64,000 nt of DNA, taken from the NCBI GenBank assembly GCA_025463605.1, contig JAODAV010000003.1:56834-120833 (forward strand). Direction: 5' to 3'. The stretch's first letter is position 1; each line of letters begins with the position of its first letter. The DNA comes from Rhodoglobus sp. (GTDB lineage Bacteria > Actinomycetota > Actinomycetes > Actinomycetales > Microbacteriaceae). The notes under the pieces are model-generated. The model had not been told where the DNA came from and ran no database searches. It worked only from the letters and a program-made list of their open reading frames with translations. Positions 45,188 through 55,854 of this stretch are shown here, piece by piece. The translations under genes were made by a program, and so were the position numbers.

Positions 45188-48100
45188 ATGTTCGTTCGCG
45201 ATAGCGTCGTCTACTACAGCGCGAGCGATCTCACCAACGCCGTCAAGTGCGAGTGGTCGCTCATGCGGCGACTCGACGCGAAACTCGGCCGCATTCCCGC
45301 GGTCGAGGAACCCGAGGATGCGATGCTCGCGCGGGCGGGCATCCTCGGTGGTGAGCACGAAGCCCGGGCACTCGCGGGCTTTCTCGCCGAATACGGCACG
45401 CACACGCCCGGCAGTCCGGGCGGCGTCGCCATAATCGCAGAGCCACAGCCACGAGCCGACCCGACTGCGCTCGCAGCCGCCATGGAGGCTACCGTCGCCG
45501 CTCTCCGCGACGGGGCTCGCGTCGTGTTCCAGGGCACGTTCTTCGCAGACGGGTTCGTCGGATTCGCGGACTTCCTCATCCGTGCCGACAACGGCGGCGA
45601 ACCGGTCTACGAGGTCTACGACACGAAGCTCGCGCGAAAGGCGCGCATCACCGCGCTGCTCCAGGTCGCGGCGTATGCCGACCAGCTCGAGCGTCTGGGC
45701 ATCCCGATCGGGCCATCGGTGCACCTTCTCCTCGGGGACGGCACCACGTCCACGCACCGGCTCGCCGACATCTCCCCCGTCTTTCAGGATCGGGTTGCCC
45801 GGCTGCGCCACATGCTCGACGAGCGCGTTCGTGCCGCCGAGCCGCTGCCGTGGGGCATCGAGGGCTATGCGGCGTGCGGTCGATGTGCCGAATGTGCAGA
45901 GCAAGTGGCCGAGACCCGCGACGTGCTGCTCGTGGCGGGCATGCGCTCGACGCAGCGGGTTCGCCTGGCGGAAGCCGGCATCCGCACCATCGATGAACTC
46001 GCGGCAAGTGAAGGGGAGGTGGAGGGCATCGGCACCGCAGCGCTCGCCAAGCTGCGCGACCAGGCCCGCATGCAGTTGGCGGCGGTGCCCCACGCACCCG
46101 ACGAGCGGCCCGTCGTGAGTTTCCGTGTGCACGATCCTGCCGGACTGGCTGCGCTGCCCGAGCCCGATCCGGGCGACATCTTCTTCGACTTCGAGGGCGA
46201 CCCGCTGTGGACAGACGCCTCCGCGCGCGACTGGGGGCTCGAATACCTGTTCGGCGTCATCGACCACGATGGAGAGCGCGAGCACTTCCTCCCGTTCTGG
46301 GCCCACGACCGGGCGCAGGAGCGCCAGGCCCTCGTCGACTTTCTCGAATACGTGCGAGCGAGACGCCTCACGTATCCGAACATGCACATCTACCACTACG
46401 CCGACTACGAGCGCAGTCACCTGCAGGCCCTCTGCGCGCGCTACGGCACGGGAGAGACCGTGCTCGACGACCTCTTGCGGGAGCACGTGCTCGTCGATCT
46501 GTACCCGGTCGTCAAGCGCAGCATCCGTATCTCGGAAGGGTCGTACAGCCTCAAGAAGCTCGAGCCCCTCTACATGGGCGACGAATTGCGCGAGAGCTCG
46601 GTCACCAACGCGGCGGACTCGATCCAGGCCTATGTCGAGTACACGCTCCTGGTCGCCGCTGGACGGGCAGACGAAGCGAAGGTCGCCCTCGCCGAGATCG
46701 CCGACTACAACCGGTACGACTGCGTGTCCACGCTGCGCTTGAGGGACTGGCTGCTCGCGCGCGCCGACGAGGCCGGCGTGCCGCGCCGGGCGGTGCTTCC
46801 CGTCGAGCCCAGTGATGACAGCCAGCTCGATCGCGCCGAGGATGCTGTGCGCAACGAGCTGTACGCGCAGATCGACGGCGTTCCCGCGGCGCAGCGCAAC
46901 CCCGATGAGACTGCTCTTGCTCTTGCGGCCGCTGCGATCGAATACCACCGGCGTGAGGACAAGAGCTACTGGTGGGAGCACTTCAACCGCCACGTCGCCC
47001 CGCTGGAGGACTGGGCCGACCAGCGCGGAGTGCTCACGGTTGAGCAGGCAGAGGTCGTCACCGACTGGTCCCGCATGCCCAACGGGCGCATGGACCGCCG
47101 GGTGATTCGACTGCGCGGGCGCCTTGCCGCCGGCAGCAGGCTCGCCCCGGGAGACACCCCGCACACGATGTACGCCGAGCCCATCCCCGATGCCTGCGAT
47201 CCAGTGCCGTCGGGCCAGCGCAGCGAGCACGCCAGAAGCAGGGTGCTCGAGGTGAGCATGCGGGGCGACACTGCCGAAGTGCTGCTCGACGAAGGCACGG
47301 GCATGGGCAACGCCGGCTGGCCCATGTTGCCTGTGGCGCTCACGCCAGGTGCGCCGATTCCGACGAAGGCGCAGCGGCAGGCGATCCTCGAATGGGGTCG
47401 TGACATTGTGGATGCGCTGCCCCACTTGCCCGGCGGGGCGAGCCTCGACCTCCTTCGCCGAATCCCGCCGAGAATGCGCGAGGGGGGCCTGGTTCGCGGA
47501 GGCGACGATGCAGCAGCAATCGTCGACAGCATCCTTCGCCTCGATCGTTCTTACCTCGCGGTGCAGGGACCTCCCGGTTCGGGCAAGACCTATGTGGGCG
47601 CTCACGTGATCGCGGAGCTCGTGCGCAACCACGGGTGGCGGGTCGGCGTCGTGGCCCAATCCCACGAGGTCGTCGACAACCTGCTGCGTGGTGTCGTCTC
47701 GGCCGGCCTGCCGGTGGCACGAATCGCCAAGAAGGCCCCGTCGTCGGGGTATGCGGTGCCGCCCGATTGGGCGGTGCTCGACTCCCCTCAGGACTTCGTC
47801 GATCTCATCGAGGGCGGTCGCGAGCAGGGCTATGTGCTCGGCGGTACGGCGTGGGATTTCGCGAACGCCGCGAAGGTGCCCCGCGCCGAACTCGACCTGC
47901 TGGTGATCGACGAGGCCGGGCAGTTCTCCCTCGCCAACACGATCGCCGTCGGCATGGGCGCACGCAACCTACTCCTGCTGGGCGATCCGCAGCAGCTCCC
48001 CCAGGTCAGCCAGGGTCTCCACCCCGAGCCCGTCGACCGCTCAGCGCTGGGTTGGCTCTCACACGGGCACGACGTGCTGCCCGATGAGTTCGGCTACTTC

Positions 48101-48703
48101 CTCGCCACCAGCTGGAGGATGCACCCGGCGCTATGCGCCGCGGTCTCCGATCTCGCCTATGACAACCGCCTGCAATCGCGTGTGCCCGAAACCACCGATC
48201 GTCTGCTTTCAGGCGTCGTCCCCGGGTTGCACGCCGTGCCCGTCGCGCACGCCGGAAACTCGACAGAGTCGCCCGAGGAGGCCGAGCGCGTTGTCGCCCT
48301 TGTGCTCGCGCATCTCACCCATGAGTGGACCGACCCTTCCCTCGGTCGCGTACGGGATCCGCTGCGCCCGTCCGACATCATCGTCGTCGCGCCTTACAAC
48401 GCCCAGGTCGACCTGCTGCGTTCTGCGCTCGACGCCGCGGGACTCACGCAGACCCCGGTCGGAACGGTCGATCGCTTCCAGGGCCAGGAAGCAGTCGTGG
48501 CGATCGTGTCTCTCACCGCCTCGTCGGCCCTCGACGTGCCGCGCGGGATCAGCTTCCTCCTGCTGCGCAATCGGTTGAACGTGGCGATTTCCCGCGCGAA
48601 GTGGGCGGCGTACCTCGTGCACTCCCCCGCGCTGCGGGACTACCTGCCCGTCACCCCCGCGGGTCTCGCCGAGCTGAGCGGATTCATCCGGCTGGTCAGC
48701 TGA
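45188..48703 (+). CDS. TM0106-type RecB-like nuclease / RNase H-like / UPF1-like helicase fusion
   Basis: 1171 aa, three modules. N-terminal RecB-like (PD-(D/E)xK) nuclease: 'GFADFLIR' then 'YEVYDTKLARKARI' with the K, and Cys near residues 225-235 ('CGRCAECAEQ'). Middle YprB-like RNase H fold: 'DIFFDFEGDPLW' and 'IADYNRYDCVSTLRL'. C-terminal superfamily 1 helicase: Walker A 'GPPGSGKTYVGAH' (about residue 796), 'VIDEAGQFSL', 'LLGDPQQLPQV', 'VDRFQGQEA' and 'NVAISRAKWAAY'. Likely DNA repair or defence; the partners are unknown. ATG 45188 follows AAAGG. Confidence 0.88.
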   Translation: MFVRDSVVYYSASDLTNAVKCEWSLMRRLDAKLGRIPAVEEPEDAMLARAGILGGEHEARALAGFLAEYGTHTPGSPGGVAIIAEPQPRADPTALAAAMEATVAALRDGARVVFQGTFFADGFVGFADFLIRADNGGEPVYEVYDTKLARKARITALLQVAAYADQLERLGIPIGPSVHLLLGDGTTSTHRLADISPVFQDRVARLRHMLDERVRAAEPLPWGIEGYAACGRCAECAEQVAETRDVLLVAGMRSTQRVRLAEAGIRTIDELAASEGEVEGIGTAALAKLRDQARMQLAAVPHAPDERPVVSFRVHDPAGLAALPEPDPGDIFFDFEGDPLWTDASARDWGLEYLFGVIDHDGEREHFLPFWAHDRAQERQALVDFLEYVRARRLTYPNMHIYHYADYERSHLQALCARYGTGETVLDDLLREHVLVDLYPVVKRSIRISEGSYSLKKLEPLYMGDELRESSVTNAADSIQAYVEYTLLVAAGRADEAKVALAEIADYNRYDCVSTLRLRDWLLARADEAGVPRRAVLPVEPSDDSQLDRAEDAVRNELYAQIDGVPAAQRNPDETALALAAAAIEYHRREDKSYWWEHFNRHVAPLEDWADQRGVLTVEQAEVVTDWSRMPNGRMDRRVIRLRGRLAAGSRLAPGDTPHTMYAEPIPDACDPVPSGQRSEHARSRVLEVSMRGDTAEVLLDEGTGMGNAGWPMLPVALTPGAPIPTKAQRQAILEWGRDIVDALPHLPGGASLDLLRRIPPRMREGGLVRGGDDAAAIVDSILRLDRSYLAVQGPPGSGKTYVGAHVIAELVRNHGWRVGVVAQSHEVVDNLLRGVVSAGLPVARIAKKAPSSGYAVPPDWAVLDSPQDFVDLIEGGREQGYVLGGTAWDFANAAKVPRAELDLLVIDEAGQFSLANTIAVGMGARNLLLLGDPQQLPQVSQGLHPEPVDRSALGWLSHGHDVLPDEFGYFLATSWRMHPALCAAVSDLAYDNRLQSRVPETTDRLLSGVVPGLHAVPVAHAGNSTESPEEAERVVALVLAHLTHEWTDPSLGRVRDPLRPSDIIVVAPYNAQVDLLRSALDAAGLTQTPVGTVDRFQGQEAVVAIVSLTASSALDVPRGISFLLLRNRLNVAISRAKWAAYLVHSPALRDYLPVTPAGLAELSGFIRLVS

Positions 48704-48747: not shown

Positions 48748-49050
48748 GTGAGCGAATTCCGGGTGCGCAGGCGCGAGAGCCTCGAGGTGCTGCGCGCAGA
48801 GGCGTGCGAAGAGCTCGACACGGTCATCCGCGAGAGGCTGCGGTCCGGCGAAGATCCGTGGGCGTTCATGGAGGAGTTGCCGACCGTCGACGAACTCGTC
48901 GTCTACCTGCTTCGGGCCGACGCGATCGCTCTCAACGACGGAATCCAGCCGACACCCGCGCGCGAATACCGTGTGCTGCGCCAGATCGCGCTCGAGCATC
49001 CGGCACTCACGAGCACCGTCTGGCACCTCATCGGCCGGTTCGCCGCATAG
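48748..49050 (+). CDS. Small hypothetical protein (100 aa)
   Basis: 100 aa, mostly alpha-helical and charged; no family recognised. It has an Arg-rich N-terminus and a 'PWAFMEELPTVDELVVYLLRADAIALND' stretch. GTG 48748 is exactly six bases after TAGGGT: leaderless. It ends next to, and faces, the DarT-like gene across a hairpin; a role as a partner is speculative. Confidence 0.65.
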   Translation: MSEFRVRRRESLEVLRAEACEELDTVIRERLRSGEDPWAFMEELPTVDELVVYLLRADAIALNDGIQPTPAREYRVLRQIALEHPALTSTVWHLIGRFAA

Positions 49051-49057
49051 GTCCCAA

Positions 49058-49074
49058 CCCGCCTGTCAGGCGGG
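49058..49074. terminator. Hairpin CCCGCC-TGTCA-GGCGGG between convergent genes
   Basis: Six-base GC stem with a five-base loop. It covers the last codons of the DarT-like gene and lies eight bases after the hypothetical gene's stop, so it may end both transcripts. Confidence 0.55.
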
Positions 49075-49791
49075 AACGAACCACGGCGGGTAGACGACGA
49101 CCTTCGTGTCGCCGACGAGATCACGCACGCGCTCGCGCATGGGCTCGTTGGCTACGCCGACAAGCTGCACGGCGCTGAACGGGAATGAGTCCTTGGCGAG
49201 CGCTTCGGCACTGCGCAGCCCGTCGGCGTCGTGCAGGCCCACGAGCATCCTCTTGAACTCGTCGGGCGAACTCGCGAATCGTGTGAGGGAGCCCGCCGCA
49301 TCGCCGTCGGTGATGACGGCATCGTCGCCGAGTTGCTTCGCGGTGCTCACGAGCACGACGAAGTCGGAGGATGCGGATGCTCGCGCGGCAGCCGACCACC
49401 GGGTCTCGTCATGCGCTCCTCCCCTGAGGTCCTCCCAGAGGGCGGAGTCCGGGGAAAGATAGAAGGGCACGTACTCCGCGACGCTCTGGCCCGGGATCAC
49501 TTCGGCGCTGAGCCTCAATTCGCGAGTGAGGTCCGAACTCACATCCACCACCGGATTGGCGTCGGCACGCAGCTCCGCGGCGTCGAGAATCGCATCGAGA
49601 TTGCGCACGTGGGTGACGTGGTAGATGCGTTGTTCGCCGACGTTGATCGACTTGCGGGAGGTGGTGACGGTCGGCGTGCGCCGGGTGGGGGGGCTCGCGC
49701 CGACCCTGCTCAATCGCGGTCTTTCCGGCACCGATTTGGGGTAACAACTGTCGCAGAGTTCGCCTTCGAACCCATGGATGCACTCCGCCAC
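49066..49791 (-). CDS. DarT-like (DUF4433) ADP-ribosyltransferase with N-terminal Cys/His motif
   Basis: 241 aa. After a Cys/His segment (C-x-H-x5-C-x2-C within the first ~17 residues) and a Ser/Thr/Pro linker comes a DarT-type domain: 'RIYHVTHVRNLDAILDAAEL', 'SSDLTRELRLSAEV', 'YVPFYLSPDSALWEDL' and 'SAEALAKDSFPFSAVQLV', which holds the Glu aligned with the catalytic one. DarT toxins ADP-ribosylate thymidine on single-stranded DNA. No macrodomain antitoxin DarG is nearby. GTG 49791 has AAAGGA six bases upstream. Confidence 0.78.
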   Translation of the reverse strand: MAECIHGFEGELCDSCYPKSVPERPRLSRVGASPPTRRTPTVTTSRKSINVGEQRIYHVTHVRNLDAILDAAELRADANPVVDVSSDLTRELRLSAEVIPGQSVAEYVPFYLSPDSALWEDLRGGAHDETRWSAAARASASSDFVVLVSTAKQLGDDAVITDGDAAGSLTRFASSPDEFKRMLVGLHDADGLRSAEALAKDSFPFSAVQLVGVANEPMRERVRDLVGDTKVVVYPPWFVPA

Positions 49792-49824: not shown

Positions 49825-49889
49825 TACCCTTCTACGGTACGCGCAATTCACGGACGGGCGAGAACGATGGATGCGCCCGCCACCCAGAT

Positions 49890-51086
49890 TCAGCCCCGAG
49901 CGTCCTCCCACACGAGGGCTTGCACGCGCAGCGCGAGTTCGCGCAAGAGGGCCGCTTCGGCATCCACGAACTTGCGCGGCCGACGGTCGACCACGCACAG
50001 CACACCGATGCGATGGCCGTCTGGTGCGGCCACGGGATACCCGGCGTAGAAGCGCGGAGCCGTCGGGCTGTGCGCCCACGACGATCCCGAGAAACGCCGA
50101 TCCGACCAGAGATCCTCGACGAGGAACAGGCCGGCCCTACGGATCGTGATGTTGCACAGCGATTCGCTGCGCGGCCGGTCTCGCTTCGGCATTCCCGCCG
50201 CGGCCTTCACCCATTGCCGGTCGCCGTCGATGAAGTGCACGAATGCACCGCTCGCCTCGAAGAGGTCGCGAGCCGTCTCGACGATGCGGTCGAATCTCTC
50301 GTCGGGCTCCTGCCGGAGCTCGAGTGACACGAGCGCACTCTGACGCGCACTCTCGTCGATCTTCTCGGGGACGCTCGGCACTTGATCGTCGAGGGGCCCG
50401 ATCATCGCAGGCACGATGCGAGACGCCCAATCCTCATACATCTGGCGACTGGCCATCATTGCAAGGTCGGCGCGGTCGGGCACGAACTTGATGTAGTGAA
50501 AGCCGCGCCGAGCGGCGGCGAGGGCGCGCGCATCCTGGTTCAATCGCTCACCGTGACGCGCGACGACCTCTCGGTACACCGGTGGCAGCGTGAGAATGCG
50601 GGGTGGCCGGGGCAGGCCGATGACGAACACCAGCACATCTGGTGCGCTCTCGCGAATCGAGTCGAAGAGCTCGCGCATCTGCTCTCGCCAAACCCACCGC
50701 GGCGTCAGGTACAGGGCCTCCGGTCCGCCGAGAGCGATCGCGACGGCGTCGAACCTCGAGAGCGCTACGCCCTCGAGTGCCGTTCGTGCCGACGCGGGCG
50801 AGAGCTCTGGTGCCGCGATCGTTTCGACATCCGTGCCGCGGCCAGTGCCCGCCGTTACGGCGCGCGCGATCGCGCCCCCGAGCGCGAGCTCATGGGACAG
50901 CACCCCGTAGCCGACAGCTATGCCGCTGCCCACGAGCAGGATGCGGTCGGGATTGACTCCCCCCGCGTGGGCGATCGGGGCATCCGTGGGAGTGGGCAGC
51001 TGACGCCAGGAATGTTGGGATGACGCGAGCCACAGGCGCACGAAAGGACGCGTGATGCCGTTGCGCACATATTCGAGCATGGTCAC
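49890..51086 (-). CDS. SGNH-hydrolase-like plus GAF domain protein
   Basis: 398 aa. The N-terminal part looks like a GDSL/SGNH hydrolase ('RILLVGSGIAVGYGVLSHELALGG', then 'DAVAIALGGPEALYL') and the C-terminal part is a GAF domain ('RFYAGYPVAAPDGHRIGVLCVVDRRPR') that usually binds a small ligand. The same GAF type ends the kinase at 54244-55746. GTG 51086 or the ATG two codons later. No membrane segment. Substrate and signal unknown. Confidence 0.72.
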   Translation of the reverse strand: MTMLEYVRNGITRPFVRLWLASSQHSWRQLPTPTDAPIAHAGGVNPDRILLVGSGIAVGYGVLSHELALGGAIARAVTAGTGRGTDVETIAAPELSPASARTALEGVALSRFDAVAIALGGPEALYLTPRWVWREQMRELFDSIRESAPDVLVFVIGLPRPPRILTLPPVYREVVARHGERLNQDARALAAARRGFHYIKFVPDRADLAMMASRQMYEDWASRIVPAMIGPLDDQVPSVPEKIDESARQSALVSLELRQEPDERFDRIVETARDLFEASGAFVHFIDGDRQWVKAAAGMPKRDRPRSESLCNITIRRAGLFLVEDLWSDRRFSGSSWAHSPTAPRFYAGYPVAAPDGHRIGVLCVVDRRPRKFVDAEAALLRELALRVQALVWEDARG

Positions 51087-53635: not shown

Positions 53636-54261
53636 TGTCAGGTCCACTCGTCGTCGCGTTCGTCGTCGGAGTCACCCCCGGCAAGTGGGCGCGAGTGTGG
53701 GCTGAGCGACTGCCCGGGCATCAACTCGAACTGAAGTCCCTATCGCAAGCCGATGCGCTCGCCGCACTGCGATCCGGCGACGCGGATGCTGCGCTCTTGC
53801 GCCTTCCCATCGACGACGAGTCGCTCTCCGCCATCCCGCTCTACGCCGAGCAGCCCGTCGTTGTGGCGCCGAAGGATCACCCCGTCGCGGCGTTCGCCTC
53901 GCTCGAACTCGCTGACCTAGCCGCGGAGATCCTGCTCGAGCAGGAGTGGGCGGACGCCGTCGAACTCGTCGCGGCCAATGTCGGGCTCGCGATCATGCCG
54001 CAGGCTGTGGCGCGCGCGCTCAGCCGCCGGGATGTCGTCGCTCGCCCCGTCACCGATGCCGTTGAGACCCGAATCGCCCTGGCCTGGCTCACGGCACGCA
54101 CGACACCGGCCGTGGAGGAGTTCATCGGCATCGTGCGGGGGCGCACGGCCAACAGCTCGCGTGGAACGGTTGCAGCACCCCCGCCCGTGAAACCGCCCGC
54201 GAAATCGGGTCGCCAGCCGAATCGCACACCGCCCCGTAAGGGCTCAGGTCGCCGTCGCTGA
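53635..54261 (+). CDS. LysR-substrate-binding-domain protein without HTH
   Basis: 208 aa. The sequence matches the periplasmic-binding-like effector domain of LysR regulators ('LVVAFVVGVTPGKWARVWAERLPGH', 'DAALLRLPIDDESLSAIPLYAEQPVVVAPKDHP', 'VGLAIMPQAVARALS'), but the N-terminal winged helix is missing from the start. The tail is Pro/Arg rich. Because the neighbouring DUF5997 protein looks DNA-binding, the two may form a split regulator (inference). The last 18 bases overlap the kinase gene. GTG 53635. Confidence 0.82.
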   Translation: MSGPLVVAFVVGVTPGKWARVWAERLPGHQLELKSLSQADALAALRSGDADAALLRLPIDDESLSAIPLYAEQPVVVAPKDHPVAAFASLELADLAAEILLEQEWADAVELVAANVGLAIMPQAVARALSRRDVVARPVTDAVETRIALAWLTARTTPAVEEFIGIVRGRTANSSRGTVAAPPPVKPPAKSGRQPNRTPPRKGSGRRR

Positions 54262-55746
54262 ATCGAGTGGGTCGAGGGATTCCTCGCTGTCCACTGCGAA
54301 CGCCGCATCGAGGGTGCGACGCGCTTCGCGGCGCAACTCGAGCTCCCGCATGACCATGGCGGCAAGATCTTCGAGGGTCGCGATCTCGTCGTCGCTGATC
54401 GTGCGTGGTTCGAAGTCGAGCACGCACAACGTACCGAGGTTGTAGCCGTCCCACGTGGTCAGCGGCACGCCGGCGTAGAACTGCAGGCCGAACTCTCCCG
54501 CCACGAGGGGATTGGCGAGCGCGCGTGGGTCGCGACGGGCATTCTCGATGATCCACGGTTCGCCGCTGAGGATCGCCGATGCGCACAGACCCGGATCGCG
54601 CGTGATCTCGTCGATCTCGAGTCCATGGTGGGACTTGAACCAGATGCGGTCGGTGTCGACGACGCTCACTATCGCGATCGGCGTGCGAAGTACTCGTGCT
54701 GCGAGTGCAGTTATGCGATCGAACGTGCCGTCGGGGGGTGTGTCGAGCAGGTCGTACCGATGCACGGCCTCCATGCGAGCGTTCTCGTCGTTCCGCTGCT
54801 CGGGGTCCAGCACAGCCTTATGCCGACCCGTTTCGGCCGCGAACATCTGATGGAGGGCGATCGCGACGTCGTGGATGTCCGGTCGCTCCGCGATGTCGCG
54901 CGAGGTCATTGCCTTGAGCAACGGCGCCCATTCGGACGGCACCGCGTCAGGGATGACCGGATCGTCGATGAGTCGCGCCATGGCCGAGTGCTGCGGCGGT
55001 CCGGGGAACGCGAGCTCGCCGGTGAAGCACTGCAGCAGCACGAGGCCGAGGGCGTATACATCGCTCGGAGGGCCGACCTCGGCGCCCCGCGCCTGCTCGG
55101 GACTGAGGTACGCGACGGTGCCCGTTACTGTCTCGCCGTCGGCGACGGGCCCAGAGGCGCCGATCGACGCAACACCGAAGTCGCCGAGTTTCGCGTTGAT
55201 TCGCGAGCCGTCGTCATCGGCGGTGATGAGGATGTTGGCCGGCTTGATATCGCGATGCACGATACCGAGCCCGTGCACGTGCTCGAGTGCCGCGGCGACG
55301 TGGTATCCCACTTGCGCCACTTGCCTGGGCACGAGGGTCGACTCGTCGAGATGGCGCTTCAGGTCGGTTCCCGGCACGAGTTCCATGACGTAGTAGATGC
55401 GGGGGTTGTCGGCATCCGTGCGGTCGATCGCTGCATCGAGCAAGGTGACGAGGCTCGGATGATTCAGCCGCGCGAGTACGGTGATCTCATCCTCCTGGCG
55501 CTGGAAGTCGGCCACGGCCTTCGCGCTCGAACGAAAGACTTTGACGGCGACATCGCGACCGAGGAATTCGTCGTGGGCGCGATAGACGGTGGCCATGCCT
55601 CCCTCGGCGATGAGGGAGTTGAGCTGGTACCGGTTGCGCAACTTCGGCGGGTGTCGCGCGTGCGACGGCTCGTCGATGATCTCCGCGTCCGCGGTCTCGG
55701 TGCTCATGCTCTCTGCGTCTGCGTGAGTTGCGGGCTCCTGGGGCAT
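54244..55746 (-). CDS. Soluble serine/threonine protein kinase with C-terminal GAF domain
   Basis: 500 aa. Hanks-type kinase domain, about residues 38-300: 'IAEGGMATVYRAHD', VAVK Lys, 'HVHGLGIVHRDIKPANI', 'KLGDFGVAS' and 'GTVAYLSPEQARG'. From about residue 320 a GAF domain ('FYAGVPLTTWDGYNLGTLCVLDFEPR') replaces the usual membrane helix and PASTA repeats, so it is a cytosolic kinase that may respond to a ligand. ATG 55746 has GGAGG four bases upstream; TATCCT further up is a likely -10. Confidence 0.87.
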   Translation of the reverse strand: MPQEPATHADAESMSTETADAEIIDEPSHARHPPKLRNRYQLNSLIAEGGMATVYRAHDEFLGRDVAVKVFRSSAKAVADFQRQEDEITVLARLNHPSLVTLLDAAIDRTDADNPRIYYVMELVPGTDLKRHLDESTLVPRQVAQVGYHVAAALEHVHGLGIVHRDIKPANILITADDDGSRINAKLGDFGVASIGASGPVADGETVTGTVAYLSPEQARGAEVGPPSDVYALGLVLLQCFTGELAFPGPPQHSAMARLIDDPVIPDAVPSEWAPLLKAMTSRDIAERPDIHDVAIALHQMFAAETGRHKAVLDPEQRNDENARMEAVHRYDLLDTPPDGTFDRITALAARVLRTPIAIVSVVDTDRIWFKSHHGLEIDEITRDPGLCASAILSGEPWIIENARRDPRALANPLVAGEFGLQFYAGVPLTTWDGYNLGTLCVLDFEPRTISDDEIATLEDLAAMVMRELELRREARRTLDAAFAVDSEESLDPLDSATAT

Positions 55747-55854
55747 CACACCTCCCTGCTGCTGCTGTGTTGGTTACAGGATAGGGAAACGGTGTTCTCG
55801 CCGAGAGGGCTTGCCAAAGGCCCGCGCTGCCGATACGGGGGCTAGTTTCGAGGC

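Follow-up and report, generated by a model that had tools for sequence, protein, structure and literature searches.

DarT relatives are known as toxins that require a dedicated hydrolase or a sequestering partner. How, then, might a Microbacteriaceae genome maintain a DarT-like ADP-ribosyltransferase with no such partner beside it? The window, a stretch of 64,000 nucleotides from a Rhodoglobus genome, carries a gene of this kind. We consider it quite probable, judging from conserved residues and gene content, that its product is a DarT-derived enzyme that is both active and antitoxin free; the fuller reading, in which it is in addition directed to nucleic acid, has in our view an even chance of holding on all three points. 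A partnerless DarT-fold enzyme conserved across the Microbacteriaceae would mean a nontoxic acceptor or built-in control, and this gene family offers a direct way to test the conversion of a base-modifying toxin into a housekeeping enzyme.

A DarT-type fold behind a Cys/His head

The sequence-only reading had placed a 241-residue DarT-like protein here and gave no strand; the ORF is real and lies on the minus strand (Table 1). The blocks of the DarT/DUF4433 fold that it recognized are present, including YVPFY (residues 107 to 111) and the Glu region (SAEAL, with E196). The Pfam DarT profile (PF14487) matches residues 57 to 238 with an E value of 2.9e-19 (70 bits; cutoff, 22.5), and the PADLOC DarT profile matches with an E value of 6.1e-26. 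The score against the NCBIfam toxin-DarT equivalog NF048013 is 65.7 bits, below its cutoff of 150. An AlphaFold2 model, computed with ten relatives alongside the window protein, reaches a mean pLDDT of 81, with block means of 83 to 96 for residues 51 to 230 and values below 50 for residues 19 to 46. The model contains an ART core, and its nearest Foldseek matches are the Thermus DarT structures 7omy, 7omw, and 7omv and the M. tuberculosis structure 7yk3 (E values of about 1e-13 to 1e-14; target-normalized TM-scores of 0.67 to 0.76). DarT1 (8baq) is a weaker match (TM-score to target, 0.55; E value, 4e-6), and the viral fold library returned nothing beyond weak matches of low TM-score. Profile score and predicted ART fold together confirm the window protein as a member of the DarT superfamily. 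Six DarT homologues from outside the family (four from plasmids, one from a phage, and one from a genome contig) served as controls and are called outside DarTs below.

Table 1. Features of the DarT-like locus (window coordinates; counts refer to full-length family members)
Feature	Coordinates	Strand	Details
DarT-like ADP-ribosyltransferase gene	49066..49791	-	241 aa; GTG start at 49791, stop 49066-49068
Cys/His head, residues 1-18 (C4-x-H6-G7-x5-C13-x2-C16-x-P18)	49738..49791	-	identical in 89/89 family members; missing in 6 outside DarTs
Basic Pro/Ala/Arg/Ser/Thr-rich low-confidence linker, residues 19-54	49630..49737	-	pLDDT <50 (residues 19-46); net charge +6
DarT-type ART core, residues 55-238	49078..49629	-	Pfam DarT 57-238; Foldseek to 7omy/7omw/7yk3
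H58-x-T60-H61, predicted NAD adenosine-ribose contacts (DarT2 H13/T15)	49609..49620	-	H58 87/89, T60 86/89, H61 89/89
R93, equivalent of catalytic R51	49513..49515	-	89/89
D164, position of base-contacting H119	49300..49302	-	Asp in 84/89; in the six outside DarTs, H,N,N,N,H,N
E196, equivalent of catalytic E160	49204..49206	-	89/89
C-terminal P235-P236-W237-F238	49078..49089	-	P236 88/89, F238 88/89; WYY end in outside DarTs
-10-like box TACCGT	49834..49839	-	48 nt upstream of start codon

A kept NAD side and an altered acceptor side

Residue counts come from 89 distinct full-length sequences of the family (at least 225 aa, broken copies left out), and equivalences come from the alignment to 7omv, with the DarT2 roles of H13, T15, and N19 (adenosine side) and of R51 and E160 as given in PMC9967889 and PMC11281641. 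C4, H6, G7, C13, C16, P18, R55, H61, R93, W119, and E196 are invariant. The NAD-binding residues are retained, N64 (N19 in DarT2) in 83 of the 89 sequences and its adenosine-side companions H58 and T60 slightly more often (Table 1).

On the acceptor side, nearly the whole family has Asp where DarT2 has H119 and most outside DarTs have Asn. The M78 position is not retained, and the residue that follows it is an invariant Trp. The stretch between the H119 and E160 positions spans 30 to 48 residues (median, 34), compared with 39 to 46 in the outside DarTs, and the GGQ..HL block of DarT has been lost. The Gln of the Q-x-E motif (Q158) is not conserved either; we dropped this loss as a diagnostic because the functional M. 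tuberculosis DarT aligns an Ala there, and L041 and L166 are also without the Gln. As far as the alignment can tell, the NAD side is kept and the acceptor side is consistently altered, and such remodeling makes a new ADP-ribosylation target likely. The changed pocket would accommodate a target other than the single-stranded DNA thymidine of DarT2; alternatively, the modification may be slow or conditional enough to need no dedicated hydrolase.

The head, the linker, and the nature of the acceptor

The Cys/His head noticed by the sequence-only reading is present in every full-length relative; its spacing needs correction, since in C4-x-H6-G-x5-C13-x2-C16 six residues, not five, separate the His from the next Cys. 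The four putative zinc ligands (C4, H6, C13, and C16) are common to all members, from which we infer that the head binds zinc. AlphaFold2 models it with low confidence, and the head alone matched nothing in the PDB by sequence and none of the Pfam zinc families. The head pattern was found at this gene in all 26 carrier genomes scanned and in none of the six genomes without the gene. Two extra matches turned up, a chance-like site in genome G034 and a second protein in genome G259. In the latter (L173; contig C5, approximately 336570 to 337060), the same head (TECIHGLEEDRCDACAPKRR) opens a small protein that is unrelated and matches no Pfam family, which shows that the head can be exchanged among proteins. 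By these patterns, the head behaves as a module that is mostly tied to this DarT-like enzyme.

The linker that follows is basic (net charge of +6 in the window protein; family median, +7), while the core is acidic (-11; family median, -8). The head is a plausible nucleic-acid-targeting element, and with the linker it would probably tether the enzyme to nucleic acid. Because of these two elements, a DNA or RNA acceptor is favored; the acidity of the core and the changes in the base pocket would nonetheless leave room for another. The best-surviving rival takes up this point and proposes an active ADP-ribosyltransferase with a protein or small-molecule acceptor, the remodeled target loop being the mark of that switch. 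We regard it as unlikely, if the least so of the rivals. The loss of the DarT2 base-contact and target-loop residues (H/N119 to D, the shorter loop, and the missing GGQ..HL) fits such an acceptor, as does a core unlike a DNA-binding surface, but the head and basic linker resemble nucleic acid binders, and the characterized DarT relatives named in PMC11543638 and PMC11281641 modify DNA bases.

The search for an antitoxin

A macrodomain DarG lies close to all six outside DarTs, beginning 1 to 65 nt downstream in the five records that are annotated. In Thermus phage phiMa (phiMa_38/39; L169), an unannotated DarT adjoins a macrodomain gene as a DarTG-like pair. When 60 family loci and the window were searched by tblastn with the DarG proteins of the five annotated records, DarG was found at 0 of the 61 loci, a few genomes being represented twice. 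The lack of a macrodomain among the neighbors, which the sequence-only reading had pointed out, extends to the entire 64-kb window under the same queries and to the whole assembly; since this assembly is 87% complete and also misses rpoB, its lack of a macrodomain is weak evidence alone. A NADAR gene occurs in 1 of 250 Microbacteriaceae genomes.

A less favored rival holds that the protein is an ordinary DarT toxin acting on single-stranded DNA thymidine and checked by an unlinked macrodomain hydrolase of the SCO6735 type or by an unrecognized antitoxin. The actinobacterial macrodomain protein SCO6735 reverses thymidine ADP-ribosylation (PMC9411070), and macrodomains, present in 74 of the 250 genomes, are more common in carriers of the DarT-like gene (49 of 128) than in noncarriers (25 of 122; Fisher P = 0.002, with relatedness ignored). 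Yet 79 of the 128 carriers are without a recognizable macrodomain, only 4 of 27 genomes in the genus of the window have one, the nearest macrodomain and DarT-like genes on one contig are 30 kb apart, and the residues that would read the base are altered. An unrecognized hydrolase or small inhibitor may be encoded elsewhere in the genome; as a whole, this explanation seems to us doubtful.

Catalytic residues and selection

Close pairs within the gene family have dN/dS values of 0.01 to 0.30, and the gene is under strong purifying selection. The equivalents of R51 and E160 (R93 and E196) are identical in all 89 sequences, which come from about 40 genera, although the choice of full-length sequences favors intact copies; in the absence of catalysis, such constancy would be difficult to account for, and the enzyme is probably active. 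Y111, at the position of the nicotinamide-stacking Y71 of DarT2, is Tyr in the window protein but in only 18 of the 89 members, which raises the possibility of weakened or changed catalysis; one of the six outside DarTs has Asn at this position. Three shortened forms, L123 (G067), L174 (G147), and L175 (G002), keep the head, linker, and tail without the catalytic Glu, which indicates that the enzyme can be lost; they could represent decay or a noncatalytic derivative. The scarcity of the stacking Tyr and these natural forms would fit a regulator that binds NAD or ADP-ribose and has no transferase activity. Against the invariance of the Arg and Glu, we give this interpretation little credence.

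Distribution and inheritance

Members of the gene family occur in 128 of the 250 Microbacteriaceae genomes and in 44 of the 85 genera, nearly always as a single copy, and in all 26 other genomes of the same genus, in two of them fragmented. Nearly all Pfam DarT matches in the Microbacteriaceae are this gene. One genome has a second, headless DarT-domain match that falls outside the family (L124; G216 contig C1, approximately 3347209 to 3347745). In an order-wide sample, only two weak, headless matches lay outside the Microbacteriaceae, and in a phylum-wide sample no match beyond the Microbacteriaceae covered the head, all of them scoring far lower.

Protein distances in the family correlate with those of rpoB, compared using homology-checked rpoB ORFs (Mantel r = 0.50; 0 of 5,000 permutations), and divergence is about 5.5-fold faster in the DarT-like gene. 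Some well-supported conflicts between the two trees make transfer within the Microbacteriaceae likely in places. The best reading is that the gene broadly follows the host phylogeny and has mostly been maintained vertically. It is a conserved resident of the Microbacteriaceae, not a stray toxin.

Among the roles that the sequence-only reading had offered (a self-controlled, a repurposed, or a phage-defense enzyme), repurposing fits best. DarTG1 and DarTG2 protect against phage (PMC11543638, PMC11481870) and the window protein matches the PADLOC DarT profile, but a stand-alone, infection-triggered defense effector is very improbable, because the phages, plasmids, and viral contigs searched contained no family member, defense neighbors are not conserved, and the gene is a single-copy one that tracks the host phylogeny across the Microbacteriaceae and is not carried in patchy islands.

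A proposed path from toxin to resident enzyme

The orphan state, the added head, and the rebuilt target side suggest a toxin turned resident enzyme. The repurposing that we favor is also the simplest account: a DarT relative would have parted from its antitoxin while its acceptor site was changing, acquired a tethering head, and settled in the chromosome as a resident enzyme. A more specific version, an antitoxin-free pathway in which the zinc-headed DarT relative marks a new acceptor (a nonthymine base or RNA) in normal physiology, is a tentative proposal, well short of an even chance.

The closest known enzymes are the DarT2 proteins of Thermus sp. 2.9, T. aquaticus, and M. tuberculosis (Rv0059; PDB IDs 7omv to 7on0 and 7yk3), which share the fold and the H13/T15/N19, R51, and E160 residues. 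Unlike them, the family is without DarG, carries the added Cys/His head and basic linker, has Asp for H/N119, has lost M78 (followed by the Trp), does not conserve Q158 and Y71, has a shorter target loop, ends in PPWF where DarT ends in WYY, and stays below the NCBIfam equivalog cutoff. DarT1 of E. coli C7 (8baq) shares the ART fold and the catalytic Arg and Glu, with a much weaker structural match, and the NADAR partner of DarT-NADAR systems is missing here. Stand-alone base-modifying ADP-ribosyltransferases are represented by the guanine-specific ScARP, Scabin, and pierisin; their ART class is different (R-S-E), and they have no sequence match to the window protein.

A precedent for a physiological DarT that is chromosomal, lineage-wide, and outside defense islands comes from the DarT-DarG system of M. 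tuberculosis, whose DarT regulates replication and transcription (PMC12170906). In M. tuberculosis, however, DarG has been retained, and DarT left unregulated is highly toxic (PMC12170906), whereas the Microbacteriaceae family does without DarG. A search of open-access papers for a DarT that stands alone turned up no account of the gene family, although a tree of about 5,000 DarTs (PMC11481870) may hold unremarked members. DNA-editing tools have already been made from DarT enzymes (PMC13368585).

Surroundings of the gene

Neighboring genes are conserved within the genus and differ between genera, and no ORF of at least 90 aa was a conserved neighbor between genera that could be a partner or antitoxin. 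The convergent gene at 48748 to 49050 was rejected as a partner, with relatives in just 6 of 57 neighborhoods; its 100-aa product matched nothing in Pfam, NCBIfam, or PADLOC.

The -10-like motif TA[GCA]CGT, picked after inspection, occurs within 100 nt upstream in 49 of the 89 members, compared with 3.7 in mononucleotide shuffles. LexA and RecA-NDp promoter boxes were considered and set aside, as the best upstream matches had at least two mismatches and scattered positions.

Directly upstream and on the same strand, a GDSL/SGNH-like hydrolase (just below the Pfam cutoff) is fused to a GAF domain (49890 to 51086, minus strand), and GAF relatives recur near the DarT-like locus within the genus. 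Another GAF fusion in the window, with a Ser/Thr protein kinase, lies at 54244 to 55749 (minus strand). On the other side, a 1,171-aa protein (45188 to 48703, plus strand) combines an RNase H-like domain (PF13482) with a helicase-type AAA domain and is a possible nuclease-helicase.
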